Virus record (IMG/VR): IMGVR_UViG_3300018080_000184
Coordinates: 1 to 62,850 of that record
Length of the DNA: 62,850 bases
Strand: one strand, 5' to 3'
DNA from: a virus
Shown: positions 12,382 to 62,850 of the stretch, piece by piece
Position numbering within the stretch: position 1 is the first letter of the stretch
Layout of the letters: each line of letters opens with the position of its first letter
Translations under genes and position numbers: made by a program
The notes under the pieces: generated by a model
Told to the model about the DNA's origin: nothing
Seen by the model: only the letters and a program-made list of their open reading frames with translations
The model's database searches: none

Positions 12382-12710
12382 CGGACAGACCGCTGTATGA
12401 CCAGCAGGCGGTGGACCAGATTCGGAAGGAGCTGGCCGCGGGTATGGCCTCCGTGCGAGGAACGGAGGTCACCAACAGCATCGCCGCCATCTCGTTTGAG
12501 GAGCTGCTGGCGAGAGCCATCAGCGATATTGAGGACGACGAGAGCGATATCCGGCCGGGGAAGTTGAGCGCTGTGCTGCGAACTCGCCAGCAGGTCGTCG
12601 ATGCGGTTGAGCGAGCCAAGCAGCTGCCCGCCTCAATGTTCGCACTGGCTACGAGGACCGTGAGCAACACACGTCCGGACGGGTCTGGCCCAGGAGGAGG
12701 CGATGGTTGA
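12378..12710 (+). CDS. Hypothetical small protein in baseplate operon
   Basis: 110 residues, helical and acidic in the middle (FEELLARAISDIEDDESDIR), ending in a Gly-rich tail (GSGPGGGDG). The start overlaps the preceding stop (ATGA) and the next gene begins inside its last codons. No recognised domain; probably a small assembly or wedge component, by position only. Confidence 0.6.
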   Translation: MTDRPLYDQQAVDQIRKELAAGMASVRGTEVTNSIAAISFEELLARAISDIEDDESDIRPGKLSAVLRTRQQVVDAVERAKQLPASMFALATRTVSNTRPDGSGPGGGDG

Positions 12711-13353
12711 TTTGCAGTTCGTGGAAATGCGCGACGTGCTCAAAGTCCTCAATGTTTCGCCAGTGCAGAATTCTGATCCCTACACACTTCATGTCAAAGG
12801 GCAAGATTTCAACAACACCGAGTACGTACTCATCAACGATGTCATGTCTCCCAGCGTCGTTGTCGTGTCATCGACGGAGATGCTCGTACAAGTTCCAACG
12901 GACCCAGCTGATCCAATCCGATCGGTTGTAGCCATCAGCAGTCGATTGACGCGGACAGATCGAAGTCGGATGAGCTTTCGGATCAGCGACACGCCAAAAT
13001 CCATCGACGGCTTTGAGCGGTTGATTCAGGCATTCATGAAGACCATGCTGCAGTCGCCTGGCTCCGACGTCTTCGCCCCGCTCGTTGGTGGTGGACTGCT
13101 TGCCTCGGTCGGGAAGCAGATGCGGGACAAGCACGGGGCCACAGTTGTTTCTGATTTCCACGCGGCCGTCACTCGAACGAAAAGTCAGTTGCTTGCTATT
13201 CAAACCAACGATCCCTCACTGAAAATGACAGAGCGGTTGCTGTACGCGCAGGTTGCAGATGCGCGATTCATTCCGCACGAGCTGACGCTTATCGGAAAAG
13301 TGTTGTTGGGCAATCAAGCTGGGCACAGCTCAGTTGTAGGGTTGGGGTTGTAG
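12703..13353 (+). CDS. Probable baseplate wedge protein, gp25/W-like
   Basis: 216 residues. The N-terminal ~100 residues look like an IPT/TIG-type beta domain (SVVVVSSTEMLVQVPTDPAD). The C-terminal ~110 residues (FERLIQAFMKTMLQSPGSDV then FAPLVGGGLLASVGKQ, ending in strands after RFIPHEL) resemble gp25/GPW lysozyme-like wedge proteins, where an L-L-T-x-PG and a following G-L signature are typical. Position directly before the baseplate J-like gene matches the usual W-J order of myoviruses. The fusion to an Ig-like N-terminus is unusual. Confidence 0.6.
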   Translation: MVDLQFVEMRDVLKVLNVSPVQNSDPYTLHVKGQDFNNTEYVLINDVMSPSVVVVSSTEMLVQVPTDPADPIRSVVAISSRLTRTDRSRMSFRISDTPKSIDGFERLIQAFMKTMLQSPGSDVFAPLVGGGLLASVGKQMRDKHGATVVSDFHAAVTRTKSQLLAIQTNDPSLKMTERLLYAQVADARFIPHELTLIGKVLLGNQAGHSSVVGLGL

Positions 13354-13355
13354 CC

Positions 13356-16300
13356 ATGTCGATTGAAAATTGGACGCTCTACATTCAGGAACGCCTGCGG
13401 GCATATGACCCAGAAATTGATTTAAACGCTGGGGCGCCGGCCACTGTGCAGATTGTCGACCCCATCGTCAACCGGCTCTCGCCCGATCCCATAGAGACTG
13501 ATCCGCTCAAGTTTATTCTTGCGCGGTTGCAGCAAGAATACCCCGAAGTCTACGCTCGAGAGGGTAGTGCCATTGCGGACTTGTTCGTCAAGACGCACCT
13601 TGTGCTGCTCGAGCCTTATCGGCGAGAAATTCGGAGCATTCGGGATCAACTTTCGTTGCAGTATCCCGATCGTCTGACGGCGGATGAGGCGGACGCGCTC
13701 GTTGCCAATTACTTCCTCTCGAGGCGGGCCGGTGATTACGCACGTGTGCGTGTCCGAATCTACTATCAGAACCCCGTATCGGTGAACATCAGCACCGTCA
13801 ATGTGGCGTACACGGCACGGGGCCTTCGTTTTCTGCCAGTCGAGACGCAGAGCATCACGGCCGAAGCGATGCTCTTCAATGTTGATGGCAATCTCTACTA
13901 CTTTGATGTGAACTACATCGCCGAGCGTCCCGGAACGGCGTACAACGTCGCTTCCGGCGAGATCGCAGGCGTTGTTGGTTTGACGGCGGCGACGCGCGCG
14001 ACAAATCTGGCGAAAGCTTCGCCCGGCACGGCAGAAGAGACCACGCCCGCTTTTATCGCACGTGCCGAGGAATCCATTGGTGAGCGCTCGCTGACGAACG
14101 TGTCTGGTATCGTCAGCCAACTCTTTGAAACCTACTCCGAGCTGCAAACGTTGCAGATCATCGGCTTCAACGATGTGGAGATGCAACGCGATGTGCTCAC
14201 CGGCGGCAACCTTGGAGAGATTCTTTATTTCGGCGCTGACGGGGCGACAGCCGATGATGGTGATGTCGATGGCTACACCACGTACTTTGACGTCGTGAGC
14301 TCCATCGACTTCACGGCAACATTCGGCCCGGTCGGTACGGACATTTCTGGCTATACGCTGACGGCCATTTTTCCAACTGGCCCCGTCGACTATCGGCTCT
14401 CTCGCGTTTTGGGAGCGACGAGGGTGAGCACAAGTGAGACGGGCGCCAACCGTTTTCCGGAGCCACATGCGGCGCTGGATTGGATGATTCGGAAGAGTCA
14501 GATTTTGACGCTGTCCGGAGTACCTGGCGGCATTCTGTTTCCAGATGTTGGCGGCACAACACTCGACGTGCCGGACAATGAGGTCCACGTCGGCAACTGC
14601 ACGGATCTCTACGTTCGCGGCGGAACGCCGGAGGACAAGGCTCTGGCTGTCGAGCTCGTAGCGGACCAATTGGCACTTGCGCGGCGGGAGGATGCGCGGA
14701 CGACCAACGGCAGTCCGTGGATTACGCTGCAGGATCTGACAGATGAGGAGAAGGCGACCGTCGTAGCTGGCGAAACATCATTGGTGCTCGAGGAGGGCAG
14801 TGACGCTGGTAGCTACCGGATTTTGGAAATTTCCGGCGCGGCACCCTACCAGGTGCGCGTTTCCACGAACATGACTGGGCCCGGCGTTGTGACAGACATC
14901 TCTTACGTGCTTGTTGATGACCTCGACGTGGATTTGTTGGAGCCCAAGGAGATCAGGTATGTCGGCGATGATCTGAAAACCATTGCCGGTCAACCGATCC
15001 TCTCAACGGTCAGCGGTCTTCCTGACTTCACCTCCGTTGGTGTCGTGGACACGGATTACGTGGAGATTTTGAATGGCGAGGATGCGGGAACCTACGCGAT
15101 TGCCGTGGGTGGGGTGGCGGCCGCGCAAATCACGCTTCAGACCAACATGACCATTACAGCCTCGCCACTCCAATACCGTATCTACCGACGGCAGACCGGC
15201 ATTGACTTGCCGTTGCTGCGGGTGACGTCCATTGAGCGTCTGGATAGCACGCTGGAACCTACCGGCGAGATGATTCCCTACAGACACCCGATCGAGGCTC
15301 TTTCGCGCAGCTTTCAAAATCCTGGTCGCGGAGCGAAGGCCGGGACCGCTATCGAAGCGACTTCTGATGACTTGACGCGCGATGCGCTCAATTTCGATGT
15401 GGTGGCCAGCTCGGGGCTCATCAACTACTACCAGCTTGGTGTACGGGAAGGAGACATTGTCAACATCCTCACGTCCGACAATCAGGGATACTACACTGTC
15501 GCGGAGGTGGGTGGTCACCCTTCAGCAGTCATCGCAGACAACGAGCTCCGTGTGGATCGGGAACTGGCGTGGCCGGCAAGCGGGATGGAGTATGCGGTTG
15601 GTGATCCATCGTACGGATCGTTCCGTTTGCGTTTTGTCGATCCATGCACATTTTCGGTAACTGCAGATGAGGCGACTTTTTCGGTGACGGACGCAAGCGG
15701 CGCGACACTGTCCTTTCGACCCGATCCTAATCTTCTGGACGAGTTTTTGCCGACGGCTTCGACCGTTCCCACCATCACTTTGGCAAATGGGTCGGGCACT
15801 GTAGTTCCATATTCGACTGATGGTGGAACCAACATTGACGCTCTTCGTTACGGTGTCCAGGTCGGAGATCGCGTCGAGATTACCCGTTATCCGTCGATCG
15901 GGTCAGTTGATCTTGCACCTGGATCAATCAACCTGGATGCCAAAACTTTACGGATCAACGTTGGTTACGGTGTCGAGACTGTCACCTTTTCGGGGACGGC
16001 CCTCAGTGCAGACGAAGTCATTTCACAACTGAACGCGCAGCTGAGCCGATCTGTAGCTGTGAAGTACGAAGATCCGGTGACCTACCCCGGGGAATATTAC
16101 GCTATGTTGCGTGGGGATCATGAGATTGCCATTGAGGACAACAGTGCGGCGGGCGCTGGTGACGCCACGGCCCAGGTTTTTGGAACGGATCGTTCCAAAT
16201 TCCAACCTTGGTTGGCGGGCACATTCGTTGGCGTGCAGACATCCAATGATGCGCCGACAGGACACGGCGGGTACTTCCTTGTTGATTTCCTTGCGAGCTA

Positions 16301-17126
16301 TCCGACCGGCGCGCTCACGCTGACAGAGACTGACGGCAGTGTGTGGGCGTCAAGCTACGATGTGCCAAACACACGTGGTCCCTACATCCACGTCAACCGC
16401 AGCGGCCGCCAGCGGATTAGCTCAACGGCCATGGCCGACCAAATGGATGATCTTGGGTATTACTATTTTGACGTGGAATGCATCAGTGAGGGTCATGGGG
16501 ATTTTTGGAACATTGAGGCTGAGCTCCAGGCCACAATAGCGGGGTATGATTCCGAAGGTTGGGAGATCAATACCGAAGATGAAAACACATCTTACTCTAT
16601 GGCAGAAGCTCCGTGGATTGCTATTTCACCTCGCATCCTTATCGTTGGCAACGAAGACGATCCTGGTAATTACCGGGAGCTGTCTGGAGACAATATCCAA
16701 ATTGCGTATGAAAGGGACCCGCTTGTAGAGCAAATCCACGATTACGTTCGCGACCCGCAGACGAGAGATGTTTGCCAGAATCCGCTGGTGCGCTCGCTCT
16801 TTCCGGTTTTTGTGCGTACCGCCATCACCTATACTGGCGGCAGCACCGAGGCCGACATTCGCGAAGATCTGACTGAACTCATCGAAGCTGTGCGCCCAGA
16901 GGATTCGTTGGCCGTGTCGAGTATGGTCAAGACCATTGAGGATACGGGAGCCAGCAAGGTGAACCTGCCCATCAGCCTGACAGGCATTGCGCACCAGAGC
17001 GATCGCACAATCTCGTTGGAGCGTTCGGAGGATGCGCTGTACGTGAGCCGGCTCGCTGCCCTGATACCAGACGATGCTGGCACCGATGCAGGCGCAAGCT
17101 ATCTCATTCTCACGCGCGTAATTTAG
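13356..17126 (+). CDS. Baseplate J-like (gp6-like) wedge protein, extended
   Basis: 1256 residues. The N-terminal ~270 residues resemble Baseplate_J/gp47: REGSAIADLFVKTHLVLLEP, then DEADALVANYFLSRRAG, then beta strands with FLPVETQSITAE and PGTAYNVASGEI. This protein joins wedges into the hexagonal baseplate of contractile tails. It is much longer than simple P2-type J proteins because of beta-rich inserts, including a hook-IN-like module at ~residue 850 (TLRINVGYGVETVTFSGTAL). The last ~120 residues (RPEDSLAVSSMVKTIEDTG) resemble the usual J C-terminus. It overlaps the convergent gene at 17123 by 4 bp. Confidence 0.7.
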   Translation: MSIENWTLYIQERLRAYDPEIDLNAGAPATVQIVDPIVNRLSPDPIETDPLKFILARLQQEYPEVYAREGSAIADLFVKTHLVLLEPYRREIRSIRDQLSLQYPDRLTADEADALVANYFLSRRAGDYARVRVRIYYQNPVSVNISTVNVAYTARGLRFLPVETQSITAEAMLFNVDGNLYYFDVNYIAERPGTAYNVASGEIAGVVGLTAATRATNLAKASPGTAEETTPAFIARAEESIGERSLTNVSGIVSQLFETYSELQTLQIIGFNDVEMQRDVLTGGNLGEILYFGADGATADDGDVDGYTTYFDVVSSIDFTATFGPVGTDISGYTLTAIFPTGPVDYRLSRVLGATRVSTSETGANRFPEPHAALDWMIRKSQILTLSGVPGGILFPDVGGTTLDVPDNEVHVGNCTDLYVRGGTPEDKALAVELVADQLALARREDARTTNGSPWITLQDLTDEEKATVVAGETSLVLEEGSDAGSYRILEISGAAPYQVRVSTNMTGPGVVTDISYVLVDDLDVDLLEPKEIRYVGDDLKTIAGQPILSTVSGLPDFTSVGVVDTDYVEILNGEDAGTYAIAVGGVAAAQITLQTNMTITASPLQYRIYRRQTGIDLPLLRVTSIERLDSTLEPTGEMIPYRHPIEALSRSFQNPGRGAKAGTAIEATSDDLTRDALNFDVVASSGLINYYQLGVREGDIVNILTSDNQGYYTVAEVGGHPSAVIADNELRVDRELAWPASGMEYAVGDPSYGSFRLRFVDPCTFSVTADEATFSVTDASGATLSFRPDPNLLDEFLPTASTVPTITLANGSGTVVPYSTDGGTNIDALRYGVQVGDRVEITRYPSIGSVDLAPGSINLDAKTLRINVGYGVETVTFSGTALSADEVISQLNAQLSRSVAVKYEDPVTYPGEYYAMLRGDHEIAIEDNSAAGAGDATAQVFGTDRSKFQPWLAGTFVGVQTSNDAPTGHGGYFLVDFLASYPTGALTLTETDGSVWASSYDVPNTRGPYIHVNRSGRQRISSTAMADQMDDLGYYYFDVECISEGHGDFWNIEAELQATIAGYDSEGWEINTEDENTSYSMAEAPWIAISPRILIVGNEDDPGNYRELSGDNIQIAYERDPLVEQIHDYVRDPQTRDVCQNPLVRSLFPVFVRTAITYTGGSTEADIREDLTELIEAVRPEDSLAVSSMVKTIEDTGASKVNLPISLTGIAHQSDRTISLERSEDALYVSRLAALIPDDAGTDAGASYLILTRVI

Positions 17127-17434
17127 TCGCCTTCCGGATCGAATATTGGCAACTGCGGCTCCAGGCGAGCAAGGTTTCCCATCTCCAGGACAAGCCGAGT
17201 GAAGGGCTCGAAGAGGCAGCCACAGTCGAGGCAGCGGCAATTTTTTCTTGGTATGGGTCGGTCCGAACGCAAAGCGTGTGCGACATCCAGTTCCGGACTG
17301 CAACTTCCACCGCAACGCGGACAGTACGCGTCATCGTAAATCGCCTGGTCTGCCTCGACGAGCTTGGTGAGTACGTCCTCCGCCCCCGCGAGAATATCGG
17401 CCAACGTGTCCCGTGCCATTTCCTTGAAAGTCAT
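17123..17434 (-). CDS. Zinc-ribbon protein, possibly from a leaderless message
   Basis: 103 residues from the ATG at 17434. Seven cysteines: CPRCGGSC (C38, C41, C45) and CRCLDCGC (C66, C68, C71, C73), consistent with one or two zinc sites. The N-terminal half is helical. No Shine-Dalgarno precedes the ATG; a TATACT box ends 8 nt upstream, so the transcript would have almost no leader. It sits alone on the minus strand between baseplate and tail-fibre genes, suggesting an independently controlled accessory or regulatory gene. Confidence 0.6.
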   Translation of the reverse strand: MTFKEMARDTLADILAGAEDVLTKLVEADQAIYDDAYCPRCGGSCSPELDVAHALRSDRPIPRKNCRCLDCGCLFEPFTRLVLEMGNLARLEPQLPIFDPEGD

Positions 17435-17439
17435 GGACT

Positions 17440-17450
17440 TATAGTATACT
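17440..17450. promoter_or_regulatory. Overlapping divergent -10 boxes (TATAGTATACT)
   Basis: The core AGTATACT (17443-17450) is palindromic. On the plus strand TATAGT or TATACT lies upstream of the gene at 17470, which also has a GAGGAGACAG ribosome-binding site. On the minus strand TATACT lies 8 nt before the ATG at 17434. Both directions may compete for one polymerase. Confidence 0.45.
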
Positions 17451-17469
17451 TGGGTGTCGAGGAGACAGA

Positions 17470-20199
17470 ATGCCTTTTCCAACTACTGATTGGCCGACGT
17501 CCTATGACCCCATCGAAGACCGTACGGATGCCGTTGATATTGTGGCGGCTGATGACTTCGATTATCAGGACAATCAAGTACGTCAACTGCAGTCGTGGTT
17601 GGGAACCACCGGCAAGCTCATTGGCGAGGATGTGGCAGGAGCCGGCCCATCGGGACTTGCCAGCCCGGAAGCCGACGGCGGCATTGCTCACACGCTGGCC
17701 GCTCGCAACGCGTTCACAACGGGCAAGCTCCTCAGCGCTGGTGATGCATTCGACGCCGTCTATGTCGAGAAATTATTTCTCTCTGCCGCTGGAAGACTTT
17801 GGGCGAAAGACGGCGTTGACATAAATGATTCTGAATTTCTTCGTATTCCGGTTGGCGGCACGCTTCCGGTGACCTTCGACTCCGGGCGGCTCTTTTACAA
17901 AACCGGGGCAAGCGAGGGACTGAAGGTTGCGGACGGGGCTGCCTGGGGCGATGTCGGTGGGGGTGGAGCGCAGGCGGAGCAGTACATTGTTGGCAACGCT
18001 CCTAATGGAGATACGGCTGCCATCTGCAACTATCTCGACACCGGGAATGGGGCGCAGCTCAAACAAGCGATCGACGATGCCAAGGACACTGGCGGCGAGG
18101 TCTATATTCGCCCGGGCGTCTACGATTTTTCGCAACCAGGCGGTCCCACAACCGTTGTTGAAGTTCGACGCTGCAAGGTTCGCGGCTCCTCGAATGTGTA
18201 CAGTCCCTCGCCTGGCGTGGAAATCCGAACGAGAACAGACACGACTCTGAGCTTGTTCTACGTCAACAACGCGCTGCTCTCCGATCTCAACATAACGGTG
18301 CAGACACCGACAGCTCCGTGCGTTGGAACGTACATTGTTCGGAACACTGGGATTTGCGAACGAGTGGTCGTCGATTTTTCGTCACCCTCATGGTCGCCTG
18401 GACAAATCTCTGATGGCGGCATCGATTCGGTGTTCTATCAGACAACGCCCATCGCTCAGCTCATTGACTGCAGCGTTGGTCGATCCGCATTCGCGCCCGC
18501 TTTCGACCCAACCGCGCCCGGCAACTACCTGGCATGCGTTCGAGCGGCACATACAGATTCCACTGACCCATCGTACGTGTACGGCGGACGCCTGCACGGG
18601 GGTGACTACGGCATTTATGTAGACGGCGCACGCGTCAACGTTCTCGACGTGAAGACGTACCGAGCCTCGCTAAACGCGGTGGCTGTGGTCGGGGCCGCCT
18701 GGGGACGGATTGCCGGCTCCCACTTGGCCACGCGCTTGACCCCACCGAGCAGCCACGGTGTGGTCATCGATGCTGCGTCATCACGATGGGATATTTCTGG
18801 CAACGTCTTTGGCGACATACGTACCGGTACCGACGCGCTCAATGTGGGCGGCAGCTACTGCACCATTCGAGGAAATCGATCGCTTTTCCGCGGCATCAAT
18901 CTCTTGGTGAGCAGTTCCAACAATATTCTGGTGGCCAACCGCATGCCCATTCCATTGGTCGATGCGGGCACGGGCAACCTTGATCTGGACGCAGGCATCG
19001 CTGGAGCAGACCCCAACGCCATTCATGTCAACGCCTCTGGAGAGATTGCTGGAGTTGCGGCGAAGACCACACCAATTGCCGGTGATCTGCTGGTCATTGA
19101 AGACTCGGGAGCCGCGAACGTCAAAAAGAGTCTGCAGATTGGGGATATTTCTCATACGCTGCTCGACGACATTGGATCGAATAGTCATAGCCAAATTGAT
19201 TCGCACCTTTCGAGCATTCTCAATCCGCATTCGGTGACGAAATCCCAAGTCAGTCTCGGGAATGTGACGGATGACGCGCAGCTCAAGCGTGCCGGAAATG
19301 ACTGGTCTGGCTTTGGAGAGATCACCTCTCCAGCGAGCGACGACATCCTGCTCATGGAGGATACGGACGACTCAGGGAACAAAAAGCGTGTGCAGATCAC
19401 CAATCTGCCGAGCACCGACTCGGACGCTATTCACGATAACGTCTCGGGAGAAATCTCGATCGTGACGGAGAAGACGGTTCCCGTCACGACTGATGTCCTG
19501 CTCATGGAAGACTCCGCCGCCACCTATGCCAAGAAGCGGGTGCAGATTGGAAACCTTCCGGGGTACGGAAGCGTGTCATATGGAGGACACGAAGAAGATA
19601 TTCCTCCTGGAGCACCTTCAGCGAAGGACGACGAGTTCGCGGGCGCCAGCCTCGATCCGAAATGGGTGTGGCTGAATTCCGGAGCTCCCGCCGGCGGCGG
19701 TGAGAGTTACGGGGTTGCGAATGGCCGTTTCTACGCAGTTCTTGATCCGGATACGCCGGCTTTCGGTGACCAGCACACAATGGCCCAAACCGTCCCGGCA
19801 CAGAATTTCGAGTTCTATGCGAAGGTGTCGTGTCAACGCTTCGTCAATTTTCATTCAGTCGGCATCGGTCTGTTCGCCACCTCGAAATACGCAAATATGT
19901 GGTTGGGGCACAGGGCTGCTTACGGCGAATTCACCGGCTTGGTTCAAGAGTACGACACCGGCTTCATCGACCACTACACCTGGCCCGTACCGAATGACTA
20001 CGGGATATTCAAGATCTTCCACAACATCACGACCAAGCTGACCAACTTTTCCTTTACGGTAGACGGCTTTACATACACGCAGCTGTTTTCAAAAACGCTC
20101 ACGTGGACACCGACACACTTCGGGATAGATATGCTTGCCTACAATGCGTCAGTGGGTATGGTCTGTAATGCATATTGGTTTCGCGTGAATTTGTTGTAG
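17470..20199 (+). CDS. Tail fibre/spike with beta-helix and C-terminal lectin-like domain
   Basis: 909 residues. Residues ~180-505 form short repeated strands with asparagine ladders (ALLSDLNITVQTP; NVGGSYCTIRGNRSLF), typical of right-handed beta-helix (pectate-lyase-like) depolymerases and spikes. Residues ~518-700 contain three copies of a shaft module (SGEIAGV...LLVIEDSG...QIGDI; ILLMEDTDDSGNKKRVQITNL; LLMEDSAATYAKKRVQIGNL). Residues ~718-909 look like a DUF1349/laminin-G-like jelly roll (EFAGASLDPKWVWLNSG). It likely binds or cleaves surface polysaccharide. No separate chaperone is evident. Confidence 0.7.
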   Translation: MPFPTTDWPTSYDPIEDRTDAVDIVAADDFDYQDNQVRQLQSWLGTTGKLIGEDVAGAGPSGLASPEADGGIAHTLAARNAFTTGKLLSAGDAFDAVYVEKLFLSAAGRLWAKDGVDINDSEFLRIPVGGTLPVTFDSGRLFYKTGASEGLKVADGAAWGDVGGGGAQAEQYIVGNAPNGDTAAICNYLDTGNGAQLKQAIDDAKDTGGEVYIRPGVYDFSQPGGPTTVVEVRRCKVRGSSNVYSPSPGVEIRTRTDTTLSLFYVNNALLSDLNITVQTPTAPCVGTYIVRNTGICERVVVDFSSPSWSPGQISDGGIDSVFYQTTPIAQLIDCSVGRSAFAPAFDPTAPGNYLACVRAAHTDSTDPSYVYGGRLHGGDYGIYVDGARVNVLDVKTYRASLNAVAVVGAAWGRIAGSHLATRLTPPSSHGVVIDAASSRWDISGNVFGDIRTGTDALNVGGSYCTIRGNRSLFRGINLLVSSSNNILVANRMPIPLVDAGTGNLDLDAGIAGADPNAIHVNASGEIAGVAAKTTPIAGDLLVIEDSGAANVKKSLQIGDISHTLLDDIGSNSHSQIDSHLSSILNPHSVTKSQVSLGNVTDDAQLKRAGNDWSGFGEITSPASDDILLMEDTDDSGNKKRVQITNLPSTDSDAIHDNVSGEISIVTEKTVPVTTDVLLMEDSAATYAKKRVQIGNLPGYGSVSYGGHEEDIPPGAPSAKDDEFAGASLDPKWVWLNSGAPAGGGESYGVANGRFYAVLDPDTPAFGDQHTMAQTVPAQNFEFYAKVSCQRFVNFHSVGIGLFATSKYANMWLGHRAAYGEFTGLVQEYDTGFIDHYTWPVPNDYGIFKIFHNITTKLTNFSFTVDGFTYTQLFSKTLTWTPTHFGIDMLAYNASVGMVCNAYWFRVNLL

Positions 20200-20214
20200 G
20201 AAGGTTGTGCGTCG

Positions 20215-23200
20215 ATGGCCACTTACGGATCGCTGCCTTACGGAATAATGACGTATGGAGTCGGAACGCTCCCGGTCTCGCCGTCGTTTGACCTTCTCGA
20301 TCTGTGCCACCCAACTGACGCAATGATGTTGACGCTGTTGTCCTACGCGGAGGTTACGCCGCAGCGCGCTGGGATTCCGTGGTCCTGGTTCAACGGCAGC
20401 AATGATTATTGCATGTTCAGTAATGACGAGGCCGATTCTGGCTTTCGTATCGACCGTGCAATTCCCAACGACACATTCACGATCCAGTTCAGCATTCTGC
20501 CGACGGACCTTCCCTACGATTTTTCTGACACCACGAAATCAAGATTTTTCGTGGCTGCCTTCAATCGTTTGGGAAAGATGATCGGTCTTCTCCTGTCGGA
20601 AATGGGCGGCATCGCGTTGGCTCAGCAGGGAGATGGAAGCTACTCGCCGCTTGTCGATTCCGCCGACGTTTTTGATGAGGGCCTCGACTACTACGTTTTT
20701 CGGATCACGGCCAGTCACACTACGGGTCGGGCGAATCTGTACGTCACGCGCAGGGAGGTCATCGCAGCTGGAGGTGAGCACGAGCTGCGGTACACGTTCA
20801 ACCTTCTCGATTGCCCTACGCATGAAACAGACAACCTGCGTGTGGAGGTTGTTGGCAGCGCCACCGACCCGGTAACAGTCTGTCTCGATTGCCTGCGGCT
20901 GAGCAGCAGCGAGCTCGTGCCGAACCGCCGGCCGGTTGCCGTCATCTCCTCCGACCAGGTGCAGTTGTCGGGTAGCTACGCCAGCTTCGATGGGCGGCCG
21001 AGCTACGATCCCGAAGCACAGCCTTTGGTGTACATGTGGTCAGTTACCGACGCGCCGCTCACGTCGACGAGCTGGCAGACGATTGAGGCCACGTCGCCAG
21101 CTGATGCAACTGGCTACACCAATGTGGTCGTGGGGAACCCAAACGACTTTGCCTACGTGGAGGTGGGTGACCTTGCGGTCACGGACGTGGGCCACTCGTT
21201 TGTGCTCTACGTGGCGGGTGACGGCAGCTACATCGTCACCATCAAGGACCTCTTTGCGGCGGGAATCACTGCCGAATACCGGTTCCTTTCGCAGAATGGC
21301 TGGGGCGGCGTCCGCAATCCATCGACCATCATTGAGGTGCTCGGCCGTCGCGCTACGCCACCGGCTCTTCCAAATGACGGGGACACGTATCTGGTCATTC
21401 CGGTAGCGGGCGGTTTGTGGACCGGCCAAGAGGGGGATCTGGCGACGTGGGACAGTGGTGGCGGTGTTTGGGTCTTCACTTCTCCGGCCGTCAACACCAT
21501 CATTTACGTGCTGGATGAGTACGAGACCTATCGGACGCAGGGTCTTGGCCTATGGTACCCAGATGAGCCTTCACCATGGGAGCTCGAGCACTACGAGGGG
21601 CGAATCAGCAGTGTGGGCGCCTTTCTTGGTGATGAGCTTGGGCTCTACACCATTGAGCTGCTCGTCAATGACGGGGAGATTACCAGCCTGCCAACCGAAG
21701 CTCTGCTCAACGTTCAGGAGACGAGCACGGCCTACGGCTACACGCCGGATCTGAGCTTCATTTGGAACTACCTGTCGGACTTTTGGGCAATCGTGGCCGG
21801 TACGGAAATGGTAGAGACCTTCTGGTCGTCCATTGCTCAGTTGTCCGCCAACGAGCTGCTGAAGTTGTGGCAGCACGATTATAGCAAGGCCGTCCCGGAC
21901 ATTCAGCGGACGTTCCAACGTCGTTGGTTGGACTACGATGTGTTCTATGGGGAGCCGAACTACGATGAGCTGCCCGCCACAGTCGAGAACACGTTGGATG
22001 CGGCGGGATACTCGGCTGCTCCCAACGTCACGGCACAGCGTGCGGATGGCAGCACTTTCGAGACGGAATACGCGTACGACCTTGGCGTCATCGTCTCTGG
22101 AGTAACGGACCAGCACTATCTGGTCATCGACGGAATCTGCCATAAAATTGTGCGAGTAGAGACAAATGCGGCCACGACGGTCTACACCAACACGGCCATC
22201 GCCGCTGGTGTCGGCCGGTCGAAGTATTGGATGATTCGACCGACCGTCACCTCGAGGGCGAGCAACTTTTCTGACCTTGCCGTTACAGCTGGCGACAGCG
22301 CCATCTTTGAGGTGCAGACGGCGGAGGGTGATACTTCAGAGCTGACTGCCTATGTGTGGGGCGCGCGGGGCGCAGTCCTGGCCTTCGACGACAGCCTCAT
22401 CAGTGGGTACCTCACCAGCTCTACGTATGTAGTTCTCTTTAAAGGCGTTGTCCGCCGCAGCGCCATGCTGGTCGATGATCTGGTCATGCGCATTCCTCGA
22501 TTGCAGGAGGTCATTGCACCGAGTCGTGTGGAGGGGGCGCCCGACCCGCTTCATGGAAACCTCGATTTTCTTGTAGAGACCGCGACGACTGTTCAGGGGC
22601 AGGAGCGGAACACGATTCAGTTCCTGAATTCCTGGTTCCCACGCGAGCTACGGGGATTGTCGGGGTACACGAATGCGGTAGACCGAGGGTACTTCTTTGA
22701 CAGCACCGCTGACTTTGTGACCACGTTTGGCGCCGATGCTGATCTTCGAGGATATGTTCTTGATGTTGGTGGCAACCGATACCGGCTGTTTCAGGTGATC
22801 GCTGCGGATCAGGTCGAGCTGTTCGATGAAGCTCTTGAGCTCAACCTGACGGGGCAGAGTTGGGAAATTCGGTCGCTGTCAGATGTTCCCGACACCCTTT
22901 GGGCCGAAGTGACGTTTCTTGATAATCGTCCCACTATCGAGGCCAATTTTGGTCGTCTGGTCGGGTTTACCCTCGACGCACTTGAGGAACGGACCGACAA
23001 TCTGGATTACCTCTCAGCGGTCCGGGGTCTCTGGTACTTCGCTTGGCATGGCCGGACACCGTACAACATTCGTGTCGCGTGTCAGATCGTGTTGGGGCTG
23101 CCATTTGCTGAAGTAGCGGGAACAATTACTGATATTCGTGATCCGTTTGATGCCACGCGATCCAGAATACTCGTGCAAGACGCGAACATCACGACGACAA

Positions 23201-24444
23201 CTCGCTCCTACTTTTTTCCAACCTCACTTGGAGTTGCCATCAATCCCGCAACTGACGCTCCGTACACCATTGGAGATGGCGTGGAACAGTTTGCTCCGCT
23301 GTCTCGAGGAGTTGACGTCGTTGACTACATCAGCGATCCGGACTGGTGGGCGGTCTACGCCGGCTCAGGAGATTTTTGGGAGCCGCAGAAAGTCAGCACA
23401 TTTGGCGTGCTCATTGACGCCGATGCTTTTGATCTGGTGAACCTCATTTTTTTGGTGGACTACATTAAAAAGTACAAGCCACCCTACCTCTTTCCGTTCT
23501 TCTCTGTGGTGAAGACCCTTGATGACACAGTCGACATCGACGATGCGCTGGTGTTGGGCCCGGCTGTGCCTGCCGTCGGCTACGCGTACCCATCAGCCTG
23601 GCCGGCCTACGACATTCCGCCCGGTTGGGCTGACTCGCCTCACGAGGTTGCTCGCAGTGGGACACCGACGATACCGCCTGACCACGACACGCGGTGGGGT
23701 GGGCTGCATCTCTACGATGTGCCCGGCAAGCTTCCAGACGGTTGGTCCGGCGCATGGCCGTCTGGAGCTCCGGGCACCCATGCGCCAACCAGGTCAGAGG
23801 GCAGTTTCCGGGTTGACGACACCGATGAGAGCGGCCACTGCATACACAAAGTCGACGCGCAGTTGGACGCCGTGAACGTGCTGCTCGATGCCGACTGTGA
23901 GGATGGCATCAACCCGGGTGGTCCCGGTAGTCCGTGGGGACTCGTCACTCCTGGTGGTCTGCCGCTGACTGCTGTCAAGAGCGCGCTGCAATTTGTCAGC
24001 CCAACAAACAGCATCCACATCATCTCGGCGGGCGCCGGATATGGTGTCTACCAGGACTACCCGGCGCTTGTGGCCGAAGGCTGGCAGGTAGCGGTTCGTG
24101 GAAAGGTCTACGTGCTCAACGGCGCGGCGCACTTTCGCATCATTGACCAAGACGGCGCGACAGTGTTGGCCGAGCTCAAGAAGTCGTATCCAGCAGGGGC
24201 TTGGCTGGATTTCACCATTCACGCCTGGGAGGTCAGTGGCACGGCAGCGCCATTGCAATTCCAAATCCTTACCGGCCCAGGTGGCGGTAATTTTTTTGTC
24301 GATGATTTGGAAGCCTATTCTGTGTTGATGCCGTGGGATCAATGGGGCGTCGACCGTGTGTATTATGGGCGCACCGGAGGCTATACTGTCGGGGGACTCC
24401 CGGACGAATATTGGAATTTCTGGCTACACGCATCGTTGCCGTAG
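20215..24444 (+). CDS. Very large tail/baseplate protein with PKD-like and carbohydrate-binding-like domains
   Basis: 1409 residues. Residues ~1-230 form a lectin-like beta sandwich (GFRIDRAIPNDTFTIQFSIL). Residues ~237-300 match a PKD/Ig-like repeat (NRRPVAVISSDQVQLSGSYA then SYDPEAQPLVYMWSV). A helical middle (~515-600, FIWNYLSDFWAIVAGTEMVE) may anchor it to the baseplate. Residues ~1225-1365 resemble a carbohydrate-binding module (LLDADCEDGINPGGPGSPWG). The size and mosaic architecture suggest a peripheral baseplate or tail-tip protein that carries receptor-binding domains. Confidence 0.6.
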   Translation: MATYGSLPYGIMTYGVGTLPVSPSFDLLDLCHPTDAMMLTLLSYAEVTPQRAGIPWSWFNGSNDYCMFSNDEADSGFRIDRAIPNDTFTIQFSILPTDLPYDFSDTTKSRFFVAAFNRLGKMIGLLLSEMGGIALAQQGDGSYSPLVDSADVFDEGLDYYVFRITASHTTGRANLYVTRREVIAAGGEHELRYTFNLLDCPTHETDNLRVEVVGSATDPVTVCLDCLRLSSSELVPNRRPVAVISSDQVQLSGSYASFDGRPSYDPEAQPLVYMWSVTDAPLTSTSWQTIEATSPADATGYTNVVVGNPNDFAYVEVGDLAVTDVGHSFVLYVAGDGSYIVTIKDLFAAGITAEYRFLSQNGWGGVRNPSTIIEVLGRRATPPALPNDGDTYLVIPVAGGLWTGQEGDLATWDSGGGVWVFTSPAVNTIIYVLDEYETYRTQGLGLWYPDEPSPWELEHYEGRISSVGAFLGDELGLYTIELLVNDGEITSLPTEALLNVQETSTAYGYTPDLSFIWNYLSDFWAIVAGTEMVETFWSSIAQLSANELLKLWQHDYSKAVPDIQRTFQRRWLDYDVFYGEPNYDELPATVENTLDAAGYSAAPNVTAQRADGSTFETEYAYDLGVIVSGVTDQHYLVIDGICHKIVRVETNAATTVYTNTAIAAGVGRSKYWMIRPTVTSRASNFSDLAVTAGDSAIFEVQTAEGDTSELTAYVWGARGAVLAFDDSLISGYLTSSTYVVLFKGVVRRSAMLVDDLVMRIPRLQEVIAPSRVEGAPDPLHGNLDFLVETATTVQGQERNTIQFLNSWFPRELRGLSGYTNAVDRGYFFDSTADFVTTFGADADLRGYVLDVGGNRYRLFQVIAADQVELFDEALELNLTGQSWEIRSLSDVPDTLWAEVTFLDNRPTIEANFGRLVGFTLDALEERTDNLDYLSAVRGLWYFAWHGRTPYNIRVACQIVLGLPFAEVAGTITDIRDPFDATRSRILVQDANITTTTRSYFFPTSLGVAINPATDAPYTIGDGVEQFAPLSRGVDVVDYISDPDWWAVYAGSGDFWEPQKVSTFGVLIDADAFDLVNLIFLVDYIKKYKPPYLFPFFSVVKTLDDTVDIDDALVLGPAVPAVGYAYPSAWPAYDIPPGWADSPHEVARSGTPTIPPDHDTRWGGLHLYDVPGKLPDGWSGAWPSGAPGTHAPTRSEGSFRVDDTDESGHCIHKVDAQLDAVNVLLDADCEDGINPGGPGSPWGLVTPGGLPLTAVKSALQFVSPTNSIHIISAGAGYGVYQDYPALVAEGWQVAVRGKVYVLNGAAHFRIIDQDGATVLAELKKSYPAGAWLDFTIHAWEVSGTAAPLQFQILTGPGGGNFFVDDLEAYSVLMPWDQWGVDRVYYGRTGGYTVGGLPDEYWNFWLHASLP

Positions 24445-57638: not shown

Positions 57639-60600
57639 ATGGCTCGATTCGACCCCGCAGAGAGTTTTCAAGCTCTCAAAGACCGGGTACAGACGGCGAT
57701 TCAGGAGAGCTTTCCCCAGGAGGGCACCAAGCACATTCTCGAAGTTGACAGCGTTGACGTGAAAGAGGACCTGCACGTCAACGATGTCCCCGCGCAGAAG
57801 AAGGCGAAGATGGGCGGAAGGACGTGGGGGATCCCCATCCACGCCAATCTTGTTCTGAAGGACAAGAAAACGGGAAAGGTTGTCGACCGCAGCCGCCAAA
57901 AAGTGGCGACGCTGCCAATGATAACTAATCGTTACTCCTACATCGTTGACGGGTCAGAGTACCAGGTCGACAACCAATGGCGGCTCAAGCCCGGCGTCTA
58001 CACGAAGGTGAAGCAGAACGGCGAGCTCGAAAGCTTCTTCAACATCAAAGGACGCCCCTTCCATGTGAACTTTGATCCGCAGGAGAAGAAATTCAAGGTC
58101 GCGCTCGGTGGCTCGAATCCTCCTCTCTACCCCATCATGCGAGCTCTTGGCTATGACGATGCGGCGCTCAAAAAGCAGTGGGGCGAAGACATCTTTCAGG
58201 CCAACCGTATGGACACACGCGGCCGCCCCATCAATGTGTCGAAAATCGTAACGAAGTTCGCCGAGCGTTTGGATCCAACGGCGACGGTGGAGAGCTACGA
58301 TCAGGCCGTTGAAGTGATCCGAGACAACTTCGCTGAGACCAAGCTCGACCCGACGGCAACAAAGCGGACGTTGGGTAAGGCCATCGACCGTATTACGCCC
58401 GAGGCCGTGCTGCGGTCGTCGCAGAGGTTGCTGGGCGTCTCGCGAGGCGAAGAGAAGCCGGACGTCCGCGACTCACTCATGTTCAAGACCTTTCACGGCA
58501 TCGAGGACATTCTTGGGGAGCGGATTACCGAGAATCGAAAGATCATTTCTCGTCGAATCAAAAACAATTTGGATCGGCGCGGAAAGATTCGTGACATTGT
58601 CGGCCCAGATGTCTTTAATCGGCCGCTCAAGGATTTCTTCGGCCAGTCGACATTGGCCAGCACAACGTCTCAGACAAATCCGCTCCACATCATGTCGGGG
58701 CAGATTCGGACCACCATCACTGGCGAAGGCGGAGTGAAGGATGCGAATCGCATCACCGAGGACGCGAAGCTTGTGGATCCATCGCACTTCGGTGTGCTCG
58801 ACAGCCTCCACACTCCAGAGTCCGGAAAGACTGGTGTCACACTGCATCTAAGCATTGGGGCGCGGAAGCAGGGGAATGACGTGACCATTCCTCTCTACAA
58901 CGCCAAGACCGGCAAGCTGGAGCACCTGCGGCCCGAACAGGTACACGACTCCATCGTGGCTCTTCCCGATTCGGTCAAACGCGTAGGCGGTAAATTCGTG
59001 CCGAAAAAGGGCAAGACGGTCACTGCCAGCACCGTTGGCAACGAGATGCGGGAAATGTCGATGGACAAGGTTCAGTACATCGTTCCTCGCTCGAGTCAGA
59101 TGTTTTCGATGGCGACGAACCTGGTGCCCTTCATCTCCTCCGACTCCCCCAACCGTGCCACGATGGCCGGCCGGCAAATGGAGCAAGCGATCGCACTCAA
59201 AGAACGAGAGGCGCCGCTTGTTCAATCCGCTCTTGGCAAAAACACGTTCGACGATCTTGTTGGCCGCTTTTCAAGTCAGCGTGCGCATGTAGACGGAAAG
59301 GTCGTCGATGTTTCAAAGGACTACATCACCATTTTAGGCAGTGATCGGAAAAAGCATCGCGTGCCGCTGTACGACAACTATCCGACCAACGACAAGAAGG
59401 GCTTTCTTCACAGCGAGCCGGCGGTCAAGGTCGGCGACGTGGTCAAAAAGGATCAGCTCGTCGCCGATACCAACTTCTCGCGCGGTGGAGTCTACGCTCC
59501 CGGGACCAACCTGACGACGGCCTACATGCCGTACCGAGGCTACAACTTCGAGGATGGAGTGGTGCTGTCCGAAGCAGCGGCAAAAAAGCTTTCCTCCGAG
59601 CACATGTACAAGAAGGGCATCACAACGACCGACGCCGAGGTTTCGGGCAAAAAGAAGTATCAAGCGTACTTTCCGACCAAGGTCGATAAGGAGCAGCTCG
59701 AAAAGCTGGACGACGGGGGCGTGGCCAAGCCCGGCCAGGTGCTCAAGCCCGGTGACACGATCATCGCTGCCATGGCCAAACGCGAGCTGACGACTGAGGA
59801 GCAGAGGTTTCGGCAGCTACACAAGTCCATTGTCAATCCCATGAAGGACAAGGCCATCACCTGGGAGGAGGATGTTCCTGGCGAGGTGGTCGAGGTCAAA
59901 AAGCGTGGCCGGCGAGTGGATGTCCACATCCGCACCACCGAGGCGGCAAAGCTCGGCGACAAGGTGTCCAACCGTCACGGCGGCAAGGGGATCTGTACCG
60001 CCATCCTGCCCGACGAAGAGATGCCGCGAACCGAAGATGGCAAGCCGGTCGACATCCTGTTCAACCCCATCGGCCTCGCCGGCCGCATGAATGCGGGGCA
60101 GGTGTTGGAGGTGGCTGCGGCGAAGATTGCGAAGAAAACCGGGAAGCCGTTCAAGGTCGCCAACTTTGAGCTCGAGGACAATATCGGTCACGTCCAAGCA
60201 GCGCTCAAGGAGAATGGGATTGCCGACAAGGAGACCGTTCTCGATCCGACAACCGGCAAGAAGATCCCCGGCGTGCTCGTTGGTCCTCAATATTTCCTCA
60301 AGCTTGAGCACCAGGTCGACAAGAAGATGGCGGCGCGTAGTCGGGATTCCTACGACCAGAACCTCGTACCCAAAGGCGGCGGCCCAAAGGGTGGCCAGGC
60401 GCTTGGTGCTCTTGGTGTCTACGCTCTGCTCGCACGAGGTGCCAAGGCCAACGTGCGTGAGATGAGCACATACAAGAGTGACCGTGCCAATGCTGGCGAC
60501 AACGACGAGCTATGGATGGCGCTCCAGTCCGGAGAGATGTTGCCGCCACCCAAGCCCACCTTCTCGTACAAGAAGTTCGAGTCCATGTTGCGGGCGGCGG

Positions 60601-62850
60601 GGGTCAATGTGGAGCAGGACGGCAACTCCCTCAACCTCATGCCCCTCACGGACAAGCAAGTCCTGGAGATGTCGAACGGCGAGCTCAAGGACGCGGGCAA
60701 GTTAATCAAGATGCGCACCCTCAAGCCCGAAAAGGGCGGTCTCTTCGATCCCGAAGCAACGGGTGGTCATTCAGGATCAAAGTGGTCGCACATTCCCCTC
60801 TCGACGCCGATGCCCAACCCTCTATTCGAGAAGGCCATCATGAGTGTGGCTGGGATTCGGGGGCCGCAGTATGAACGGCTCATCAAGGGTGAGGCTGGCG
60901 TGCTCACCGACGGAACCATCATCGAGGAGCAAGGGGCAAAAGGGGCGGTGTACGGTCCCAAGTCTGTCGGCCGCCTTTTGGGCAACGTCAACGTCGAGAC
61001 GACGCTCAAGCACGAGGAGGAGAGGATCCCCAAGCTCAAAGGCCAGCTCCAAAATGAAGCCCGCCGACGCATTAAGTATCTTCGAGCACTCAAAAAGACG
61101 GGAATGTTGCCCACTGAAGCGTACATGATGAACAACCTCCCGGTTTTGCCGCCGAATATGAGACCCGTCGCCGTGCTGGATGACGGCCGGCTGCAGACGG
61201 ATGACGTGAATGAGCTGTACAAGCAGTTCGCCATCGTCAACAAGAAGCTCAAGGAGTTCCCAGCCGGCACGCCAGCAACAATCAAGGCGCCTCTCGAGGC
61301 CGATATTTATGATCACCTCAAAGCGGTCACCGGACTAGGAGGCACGCTCAATCGCAAATTCCCGGGCCTCGTGCAACAGATTGCCGGCGTTGAAAGTCCG
61401 AAAAGCGGCTATTTTCAGAACGTCATCATCAAACGCAAGCAAGACCTGACCGCCCGCTCTACCATCGTCCCTGAGCCCAAGCTCAGCCTCGATGAAGCGG
61501 AAATCCCTCGCAAGGCGGCGAAGGAAATGTACAAGCCCTTCCTCATCCGTGAGCTGCGGCGAACAGTGGGTGCCACGCCCCTTCGGGCCAAACAGATGAT
61601 TGACCAAGGCGATCCGCTGGCTGAGAGAGCGCTGGAAAGAGTCGTTCAAGAGAGGCCAGTATTGTTGAAGCGCGACCCCGTTCTTCACAAGTACGGCATC
61701 CAAGCTTTCCAACCCAAGCTCACCGAAGGGAAGGCGATCAAGATACACCCGCTCGTGTGTTCAGGGTACAACGCCGACTTTGACGGCGATCAGCAATGCG
61801 CAAGCGTACTTATAGCCGTCGAAAGATCTGTGTACAACCGCGGTATAAGCTTCTATGAACCACGGAGAATTTACATGACCGCGAGATTCATGGAAGCTGT
61901 AGGCTATACGACCGACGAAGGTGAACTTGTTGTCTGCAACCTCGAGGATTTTCCTCATCTGCCCGAAAAAACTACTAAAGGCCACATCGACTACCATCCC
62001 GTGCCGGAGGGAATACGCGTTGTTTGTCTCGATGAGGCAACGGGAGAGCCCCGCCTTGCGCCCGTAACTGGATGGTCACTTCATCGACAGAGACAGATCG
62101 AGATCGTGACAACGGGCAGTGGTCGCCAGATCATTACAGACGATGATGAGAGGGCCGTGTATGGCGTGGACGCATCCTCTCTTGAATGGTGTCGTCGTCG
62201 GCCGTCAGAATCTGAAAATCAATTTGTTCCGATCATCGACGAAGCGCCTAGCCACGCTGGGTGGATAAAAACATTGCCGCTTCCCGAAGATTCCCGTTGT
62301 CGTCTACGCAACGAGGTGACCGTCGATTTCGACTTCGGATATTTTCTCGGCGCCTTGATTGGTGATGACTGGGTCATGTATGCGGATGGTCGGCCAGCGG
62401 GTGTGGTTTTGGCATCAAGTTATCCTGAGGTGGCGCAAAGGTGGGTTGAAGCCAGCCGGTCGGTATTTAAAGAAGCACCGCATACGTCGCGGGCGGTCAT
62501 TACGGAAGGCAAGTTCGAGAACAGCTGCGGCTGTACAAACCACACCATCTATTCCGCTGCATTGGCCAGGTTCATCGAACCGCTCATTGGCCGCGGTGCG
62601 GAAAATAAGCACCTGCCACCATTTTTCTACGGGGCTTCGGATAGCTTCCGTGAGGGATTGTTGAGTGGTCTATTTGATACCGACGGCTCCATGAGTTGGT
62701 CCAACGCGAAAGAGAAGCCGCAGTTTTTGTGCGCGTACCACTCCACAAGTCTCCGTCTGCTTCAAGAGCTTCAGCATCTGTTGCGAACATGTCGGGTGGC
62801 GTCAACGATAACGCCCTACCAGACACCGCAAGGCGCGCCCTGTTGGATTC
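57639..62850 (+). CDS. rpoBC: Fused beta/beta-prime RNA polymerase with intein, 3' end outside window
   Basis: 1737 codons without a stop. The beta half (~1-1020) contains MPYRGYNFEDG (630-640) and GDKVSNRHGGKG (773-784), the latter near the catalytic lysine/proline loop, then ILFNPIGLAGRMNAGQ. From GGLFDPEATGG (~1033) the chain continues as beta-prime: SHIPLSTPMPNPLFEKAI, NLPVLPPNMRPVAVL (~1166), RDPVLHKYGIQAFQP and the catalytic NADFDGDQ (1378-1385), whose three Asp hold the Mg2+. The usual N-terminal zinc-binding Cys of beta-prime are absent. After Q1386 an intein interrupts the chain. The enzyme would transcribe phage genes with the sigma factor at 892. Start follows a GAGGA leader and a host-like promoter. 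Confidence 0.85.
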   Translation, partial: MARFDPAESFQALKDRVQTAIQESFPQEGTKHILEVDSVDVKEDLHVNDVPAQKKAKMGGRTWGIPIHANLVLKDKKTGKVVDRSRQKVATLPMITNRYSYIVDGSEYQVDNQWRLKPGVYTKVKQNGELESFFNIKGRPFHVNFDPQEKKFKVALGGSNPPLYPIMRALGYDDAALKKQWGEDIFQANRMDTRGRPINVSKIVTKFAERLDPTATVESYDQAVEVIRDNFAETKLDPTATKRTLGKAIDRITPEAVLRSSQRLLGVSRGEEKPDVRDSLMFKTFHGIEDILGERITENRKIISRRIKNNLDRRGKIRDIVGPDVFNRPLKDFFGQSTLASTTSQTNPLHIMSGQIRTTITGEGGVKDANRITEDAKLVDPSHFGVLDSLHTPESGKTGVTLHLSIGARKQGNDVTIPLYNAKTGKLEHLRPEQVHDSIVALPDSVKRVGGKFVPKKGKTVTASTVGNEMREMSMDKVQYIVPRSSQMFSMATNLVPFISSDSPNRATMAGRQMEQAIALKEREAPLVQSALGKNTFDDLVGRFSSQRAHVDGKVVDVSKDYITILGSDRKKHRVPLYDNYPTNDKKGFLHSEPAVKVGDVVKKDQLVADTNFSRGGVYAPGTNLTTAYMPYRGYNFEDGVVLSEAAAKKLSSEHMYKKGITTTDAEVSGKKKYQAYFPTKVDKEQLEKLDDGGVAKPGQVLKPGDTIIAAMAKRELTTEEQRFRQLHKSIVNPMKDKAITWEEDVPGEVVEVKKRGRRVDVHIRTTEAAKLGDKVSNRHGGKGICTAILPDEEMPRTEDGKPVDILFNPIGLAGRMNAGQVLEVAAAKIAKKTGKPFKVANFELEDNIGHVQAALKENGIADKETVLDPTTGKKIPGVLVGPQYFLKLEHQVDKKMAARSRDSYDQNLVPKGGGPKGGQALGALGVYALLARGAKANVREMSTYKSDRANAGDNDELWMALQSGEMLPPPKPTFSYKKFESMLRAAGVNVEQDGNSLNLMPLTDKQVLEMSNGELKDAGKLIKMRTLKPEKGGLFDPEATGGHSGSKWSHIPLSTPMPNPLFEKAIMSVAGIRGPQYERLIKGEAGVLTDGTIIEEQGAKGAVYGPKSVGRLLGNVNVETTLKHEEERIPKLKGQLQNEARRRIKYLRALKKTGMLPTEAYMMNNLPVLPPNMRPVAVLDDGRLQTDDVNELYKQFAIVNKKLKEFPAGTPATIKAPLEADIYDHLKAVTGLGGTLNRKFPGLVQQIAGVESPKSGYFQNVIIKRKQDLTARSTIVPEPKLSLDEAEIPRKAAKEMYKPFLIRELRRTVGATPLRAKQMIDQGDPLAERALERVVQERPVLLKRDPVLHKYGIQAFQPKLTEGKAIKIHPLVCSGYNADFDGDQQCASVLIAVERSVYNRGISFYEPRRIYMTARFMEAVGYTTDEGELVVCNLEDFPHLPEKTTKGHIDYHPVPEGIRVVCLDEATGEPRLAPVTGWSLHRQRQIEIVTTGSGRQIITDDDERAVYGVDASSLEWCRRRPSESENQFVPIIDEAPSHAGWIKTLPLPEDSRCRLRNEVTVDFDFGYFLGALIGDDWVMYADGRPAGVVLASSYPEVAQRWVEASRSVFKEAPHTSRAVITEGKFENSCGCTNHTIYSAALARFIEPLIGRGAENKHLPPFFYGASDSFREGLLSGLFDTDGSMSWSNAKEKPQFLCAYHSTSLRLLQELQHLLRTCRVASTITPYQTPQGAPCWI
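61797..62850 (+). other. Intein with LAGLIDADG homing endonuclease in beta-prime (3' end outside window)
   Basis: Begins at Cys1387, directly after NADFDGDQ-Q. RVVCLDEATGEPRLAPVTGW and the following VTTGSGRQIITDDDE fit intein Hint-domain strands (block B region, with TDDD where TxxH is usual). The endonuclease has two acidic LAGLIDADG helices, FLGALIGDDW and LLSGLFDTDGS. The stretch from Cys1 to the Hint strands is ~85 residues, longer than usual. The C-terminal HN and the extein continuation lie beyond the window. It would splice out to restore the active site and could home into intein-free alleles. Confidence 0.75.
61821..61849 (+). promoter_or_regulatory. Phage-type promoter-like element inside the intein
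   Basis: GAAAGA, 17 nt, TATAAG in the context GCGGTATAAG, matching the minus-strand elements at 35393 and 51528. It is followed by CGGAGA (61863-61868) and an in-frame ATG at 61875. It could drive separate expression of the endonuclease part. Could be chance, since it lies in coding sequence. Confidence 0.35.

Follow-up and report, generated by a model that had tools for sequence, protein, structure and literature searches.

How can an intein leave its host protein when it lacks the residue with which splicing usually begins? In nearly all inteins, the N-terminal nucleophile is the group that starts self-excision. The question is raised by the last open reading frame (ORF) of the window analysed here, the complete 62,850-base IMG/VR virus record IMGVR_UViG_3300018080_000184, whose end falls within an intein. 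This ORF (57639-62849, + strand, 1737 amino acids (aa)) is stop-free up to the contig end and its first 1384 aa form an RNA polymerase, beta then beta' in a single chain. The intein sits between the last Asp of the NADFDGD motif and the following Thr of this phage polymerase. The family to which it belongs probably splices by a rarely seen route, as judged from residue patterns. We hold with moderate confidence that it is a large homing intein family devoid of both the N-terminal nucleophile and the block B His, in which the Thr at position +1 attacks the N-terminal junction directly.

A scan of viral contigs with the whole window ORF yielded 64 loci, in 59 of which the motif is readable (L numbers below denote loci of this and further scans); the automatic occupied or empty labels of several rows (L063, L015, L020 and L021; L003, L011 and L049) were corrected by hand. 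NADFDGD is uninterrupted in 53 of the 59, the next residue being T in 45 and A in 8, while six carry an insert. The nearest relatives of the window extein, L006 and L007/L008, are both intein-free and read NADFDGDTMSA[FY]VP. The same kind of insert as in the window is present in L042 and L063, where the C-extein restarts in frame as LSN/TMSA[FY]VP (slashes mark junctions), and full-length alleles at the site finish ...YDLTVPGYETF..DGV.LSN/TM. Since intein-free sequences read NADFDGD/T and full-length alleles restart at the T, residue 1 of the window intein is Gln-61791. The initial annotation had correctly recognised an intein lying directly after the motif in the universal metal-binding loop, but by drawing the boundary after NADFDGDQ it left the first intein residue in the extein. 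Of the two features it predicted for the far junction, an extein resuming in frame with an HVP-like sequence is seen in full-length relatives (TMSA[FY]VP) and agrees with the intein-free relatives it proposed for comparison, whereas the terminal His-Asn is replaced by SN/T in all 15 complete alleles of the family. The C-terminal ~150 aa of the window intein and the entire C-extein lie beyond the contig end and are known from relatives only; viral contigs were also searched for an exact match to 40 bases of DNA close to that end, and none was found.

The window element is confirmed as a genuine intein. Downstream of NADFDGD, Pfam LAGLIDADG_3 is matched above its cut-off (E 5.4e-8), and both LAGLIDADG motifs are present with their acidic residues, as first annotated. 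In alignment it is 51-56% identical to the complete alleles L042, L063, L071, L072 and L098; a tblastn search with it against a phage collection found no match. Scans with intein alignments gave 21 distinct family members with a readable N-junction, including L098, whose contig is assigned to a Candidatus Eisenbacteria genome bin. Members are 28-56% identical to the window intein in pairwise comparison, and wherever the N-junction was read the insert is preceded by the RNA polymerase D[FY]DGD motif. With matches up to E 1 counted, all 25 members show LAGLIDADG_3 and 24 of 25 show Intein_splicing, the latter match in L042 being below the curated cut-off; most members retain both endonuclease motifs. 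Third codon positions differ most between the window intein and L042 (0.69 vs 0.40 and 0.29), as expected under purifying selection. An AlphaFold2 model of the L042 precursor, built from 25 aligned rows (predicted local distance difference test score 80.5, predicted template modelling (TM) score 0.71), most closely matches, among PDB folds, the endonuclease-bearing TliVMA intein (E 1.3e-20, TM 0.72 on target). The family element is accordingly modelled as a HINT-fold intein, with splicing blocks F and G in relatives. In sequence-profile comparison PI-PkoII scored best (E 1.9e-9), followed by PI-PfuI (E 1.3e-5) and by DnaB inteins, the latter matched in their C-terminal blocks (E 2e-5).

Residue patterns were counted in the 21 members for residue 1, in 16 aligned members for residue 2 and in the 15 complete alleles for the splice blocks. 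Residue 1 takes nine types (seven Gln, three Asp, two each of Leu, Lys, Glu and Tyr, and single Ala, Cys and Phe) and its entropy ranks 66 of 478 alignment columns, among the most variable, whereas residue 2 is Gln in 14 of 16. Invariant in all complete alleles are the block B Asp cluster D116-D118, an Asp at F:4, the Ser-Asn end and Thr+1, together with the Ser and His of a WSxH motif and a Glu-Thr pair in block F. No Cys is invariant in these alleles and none occurs in block F; the canonical B:10 His is absent from all of them and from the window in either register of block B. A Trp-Cys pair, W133-C134, was considered as catalytic when it proved invariant in the first three alleles, and was rejected with the Cys kept in only 5 of 15. 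With residue 1 so variable and no Cys at F:4, neither the chemistry of class 1 nor that of class 3 can be the rule in this family.

A sister family occupies the very same site (L009, L044, L056, L092, L096, L112, L117, L120 and L125). It resembles the window family in length and domain order, with 23-30% identity to the window intein, but is class 1-like: residue 1 is Ser in eight members and Cys in one, and the block B His is present (SEDH in members read). Its C-terminus ends with Asp after a penultimate Trp, Tyr or Gln, and +1 is Thr or Cys. A further element of the sister kind, L022 (14237-15508), has Asn at residue -1 (NADFDGN/C...VWD/TMSVYVP) and a shortened endonuclease (DGNG); simple splicing there would yield a polymerase short of one catalytic Asp.

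In the splicing route that we favour, the Thr+1 hydroxyl would attack the Asp(-1)-X1 peptide bond directly, assisted by the Thr/Asp cluster of block B and by the F:4 Asp. The product would be the block G branched ester, upon which the terminal Asn would cyclise and an O-to-N acyl shift would join NADFDGD to TM, restoring the metal-binding loop. Before these steps the polymerase would be inactive, as the initial annotation soundly inferred. Several points weigh against direct Thr+1 attack. Class 2 inteins need a B:10 His and use Cys+1 (PMC4031507), and the window family has neither; attack of a Thr hydroxyl on an amide without B:10 His would be chemically demanding; and the window's own C-terminal splice blocks fall outside the contig.

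A bolder proposal, which we offer tentatively, is that these elements define a fourth intein class in which residue 1 is chemically idle, the Asp cluster serves for the block B His, and either the Thr+1 hydroxyl or an internal group cleaves the Asp-X bond at the catalytic Asp; members split after an N-intein of ~21-54 residues would then trans-splice without any N-terminal nucleophile. Two pairs of identical loci appear to carry inteins naturally split just after block A, namely L115 (8022-10272; identical to L116) and L119 (7792-10061; identical to L121). In L115/L116 the N-half stops after 54 intein aa and the ATG of the C-half comes after aaaaggagtttaggag, and in L119/L121 a 21-aa N-intein gives way to a gap, containing a TTGACA-16-TATAGT match, and to a new start. 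Locus L107 (7788-9752) has a single in-frame TAA and its split status is ambiguous.

Cleavage of the N-junction by some internal nucleophile that is neither Cys F:4 nor Thr+1 would amount to a new class of mechanism, and seems to us rather unlikely. Candidates would be a block B Thr or Ser, the WSxH Ser and the penultimate Ser, as well as a carboxylate side chain, for instance that of Asp-1 via an anhydride. Such a role could be read from the invariant Asp cluster standing in place of the block B His and from the invariance of the WSxH, block F Glu-Thr and penultimate Ser residues, and class 3 inteins show that residue 1 can be replaced by an internal residue (PMC7664689). Yet the sequences single out no candidate, and Asp-1 and the F:4 Asp are equally invariant in the sister family, which keeps Ser1. 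Decay to a non-splicing intein in an inactive or dispensable polymerase is very improbable: it would account for the lost canonical N-terminal residues and for NADFDGN in L022, but across 15 alleles, with intein identities often <40%, neither block G nor Thr+1 varies, frames stay open over 500 codons, third codon positions differ most, and most members keep both endonuclease motifs. An ordinary class 1 intein starting at Cys 61797 (QQ/C) is the natural assumption from the window alone, but can be almost dismissed, for the Cys is at position 3 in the window and position 2 in L063, most alleles have none, one or two surplus residues would be left in the universal loop relative to the empty site NADFDGD/T, and the block B His is missing as well. 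We give as little credence to retention of the intein because its conditional splicing would time transcription in the phage, the switch on late transcription that the initial annotation suggested, since most relatives are intein-free and presence is sporadic, even though the insert blocks the catalytic loop and conditional splicing is described for some other inteins.

The distribution of these inteins fits the proposal, made in the initial annotation, of homing into an invariant site, in which the LAGLIDADG endonuclease would carry the intein gene into empty RNA polymerase alleles. Intein presence on the extein tree requires at least 13 changes, with the window placed among intein-free rows, and such sporadic presence is as expected for homing. 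Closely related occupied and empty alleles are also found: in the sister family, occupied L009 and empty L038 share 92.7% identity on either side of the site, and +1 is Cys in the former and Ala in the latter. This pattern fits homing with co-conversion of flanks and a +1 nucleophile needed only where the intein is present. Within the window family, intein and extein identities correlate (r 0.66, Mantel p 0.0005), and some inteins are more alike than their exteins (e.g., L071-L072, 57% vs 43%). Consequently, co-descent of intein and extein is clear from these identities, and some transfer is likely.

Table 1. Features of the polymerase gene and its intein in the window.
Feature	Position	Strand	Basis
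N-extein, single-chain beta-beta' RNA polymerase up to the beta' metal-binding loop	57639..61790	+	open frame; Pfam, NCBIfam, PHROG
Catalytic NADFDGD motif, last Asp = intein residue -1	61770..61790	+	sequence; relatives
Intein, cut by contig end, 353 of ~505 aa, residue 1 = Gln	61791..62850	+	alignment with complete alleles
Block A region QQCASVLI, position 1 neither Cys nor Ser, Gln conserved at position 2	61791..61814	+	allele comparison
Block B region GSGRQIITDDD, Asp in place of canonical His (TxxH)	62115..62147	+	three Asp invariant in window and 15 complete alleles
LAGLIDADG motif 1 FGYFLGALIGDDWV	62334..62375	+	sequence, alignment
LAGLIDADG motif 2 FREGLLSGLFDTDGSMSW	62646..62699	+	Pfam LAGLIDADG_3, alignment

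The N-extein matches Pfam RNA_pol_Rpb2_6 (E 1e-61) and RNA_pol_Rpb1_2 (E 1.1e-21) as well as RNA polymerase entries in NCBIfam and PHROG, and the window contains tailed-phage genes (tail sheath match, E 1.6e-65). The closest named phages by polymerase are Salmonella phage Arash and Vibrio phages D69, D181 and D148, at ~34% identity over 98-99% of the length. RNA polymerase-encoding Caudovirales, known as mReC phages, are recognised by a beta and beta' branching apart from cellular homologues (PMC7481178). In Arash, the fused beta-beta' ORF stops ~90 aa past DYDGD, and a distinct ORF further downstream carries the annotation of a second RNA polymerase subunit (loci L003, L005 and L070); the D69 polymerase ORF stops likewise. 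A stretch annotated with a homing endonuclease splits the polymerase gene in D181 (L004, 7477-8425) and, judging from its search match, in D148, while D69 (L003) is uninterrupted. Elsewhere in the window (9427-24444) lie large ORFs of 984, 1256, 909 and 1409 aa; the 984- and 1256-aa ORFs have no PHROG match, and the 909- and 1409-aa ORFs have weak matches including tail fibre families.

Further intein-sized insertions are frequent in this polymerase family and recur at sites in conserved beta and beta' segments (L042, L051-L057, L063, L071, L078, L080, L092, L108, L115 and others). The single 3777-aa polymerase chain of L098 (1577-12907) contains four inteins, located in beta (GDKL/C...GN/SGRHGNK), at the NADFDGD-type site (GADFDGD), in the zinc region (ending HN/C) and in the bridge helix (FH/C...HN/SGG). 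The three outside the NADFDGD-type site have canonical His-Asn or Gly-Asn ends.

Among known systems, the RPB2-type inteins found in RNA polymerases of eukaryotes and viruses likewise interrupt conserved segments of the active centre in a multi-subunit enzyme, but these are located in the second-largest subunit and none of the sites described for them is the metal loop of the largest one (PMC1635734). None of the papers searched pairs "intein" with "NADFDGD"; the M. jannaschii RNA polymerase A' intein may be an archaeal allele at this site. The window family departs from class 1, whose Cys1 or Ser1 is Gln in the window (Cys in one of 21 alleles) and whose B:10 His is Asp in the window and all complete alleles. 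It shares with class 3 (WCT triad, phage-origin DnaB family) the missing N-terminal nucleophile and a phage association. Class 3 inteins bear a Trp at B:12, and membership was ruled out by Asp rather than Cys at F:4 and by Arg at B:12, both in 15 of 15.

The closest parallel is class 2. A 2014 review describes every known class 2 intein as an orthologue within a single archaeal family, and the activation of the N-junction in these inteins as unresolved (PMC4031507). A second, separate nucleophile-less family, with a same-site sister bearing canonical residues, makes this activation testable by comparison, and an intein indifferent to residue 1 and needing no Cys would be useful for protein engineering. 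In published class 2 inteins the N-nucleophile is missing, G:6 is Ser and residue +1 makes the attack directly (PMC4031507). Like the M. jannaschii KlbA family, the window family has no N-terminal nucleophile, an F:4 Asp, a HINT fold and a C-terminal Ser-Asn, the G:6 Ser and G:7 Asn being found in every complete allele, at a position beyond the window end. The KlbA-type inteins differ in having Ala1 and Cys+1 and in requiring the B:10 His (PMC4031507), whereas in the window family residue 1 is free (Ala in one allele only), +1 is Thr throughout, an Asp cluster replaces the His and the host is a phage RNA polymerase. The profile match to the KlbA intein structure (2jmz) is insignificant (E 0.43), so that by sequence the family is not a KlbA orthologue. 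Consequently, as the B:10 His that class 2 needs and its Cys+1 are both absent, the window family would work like class 2 without being a member of it.
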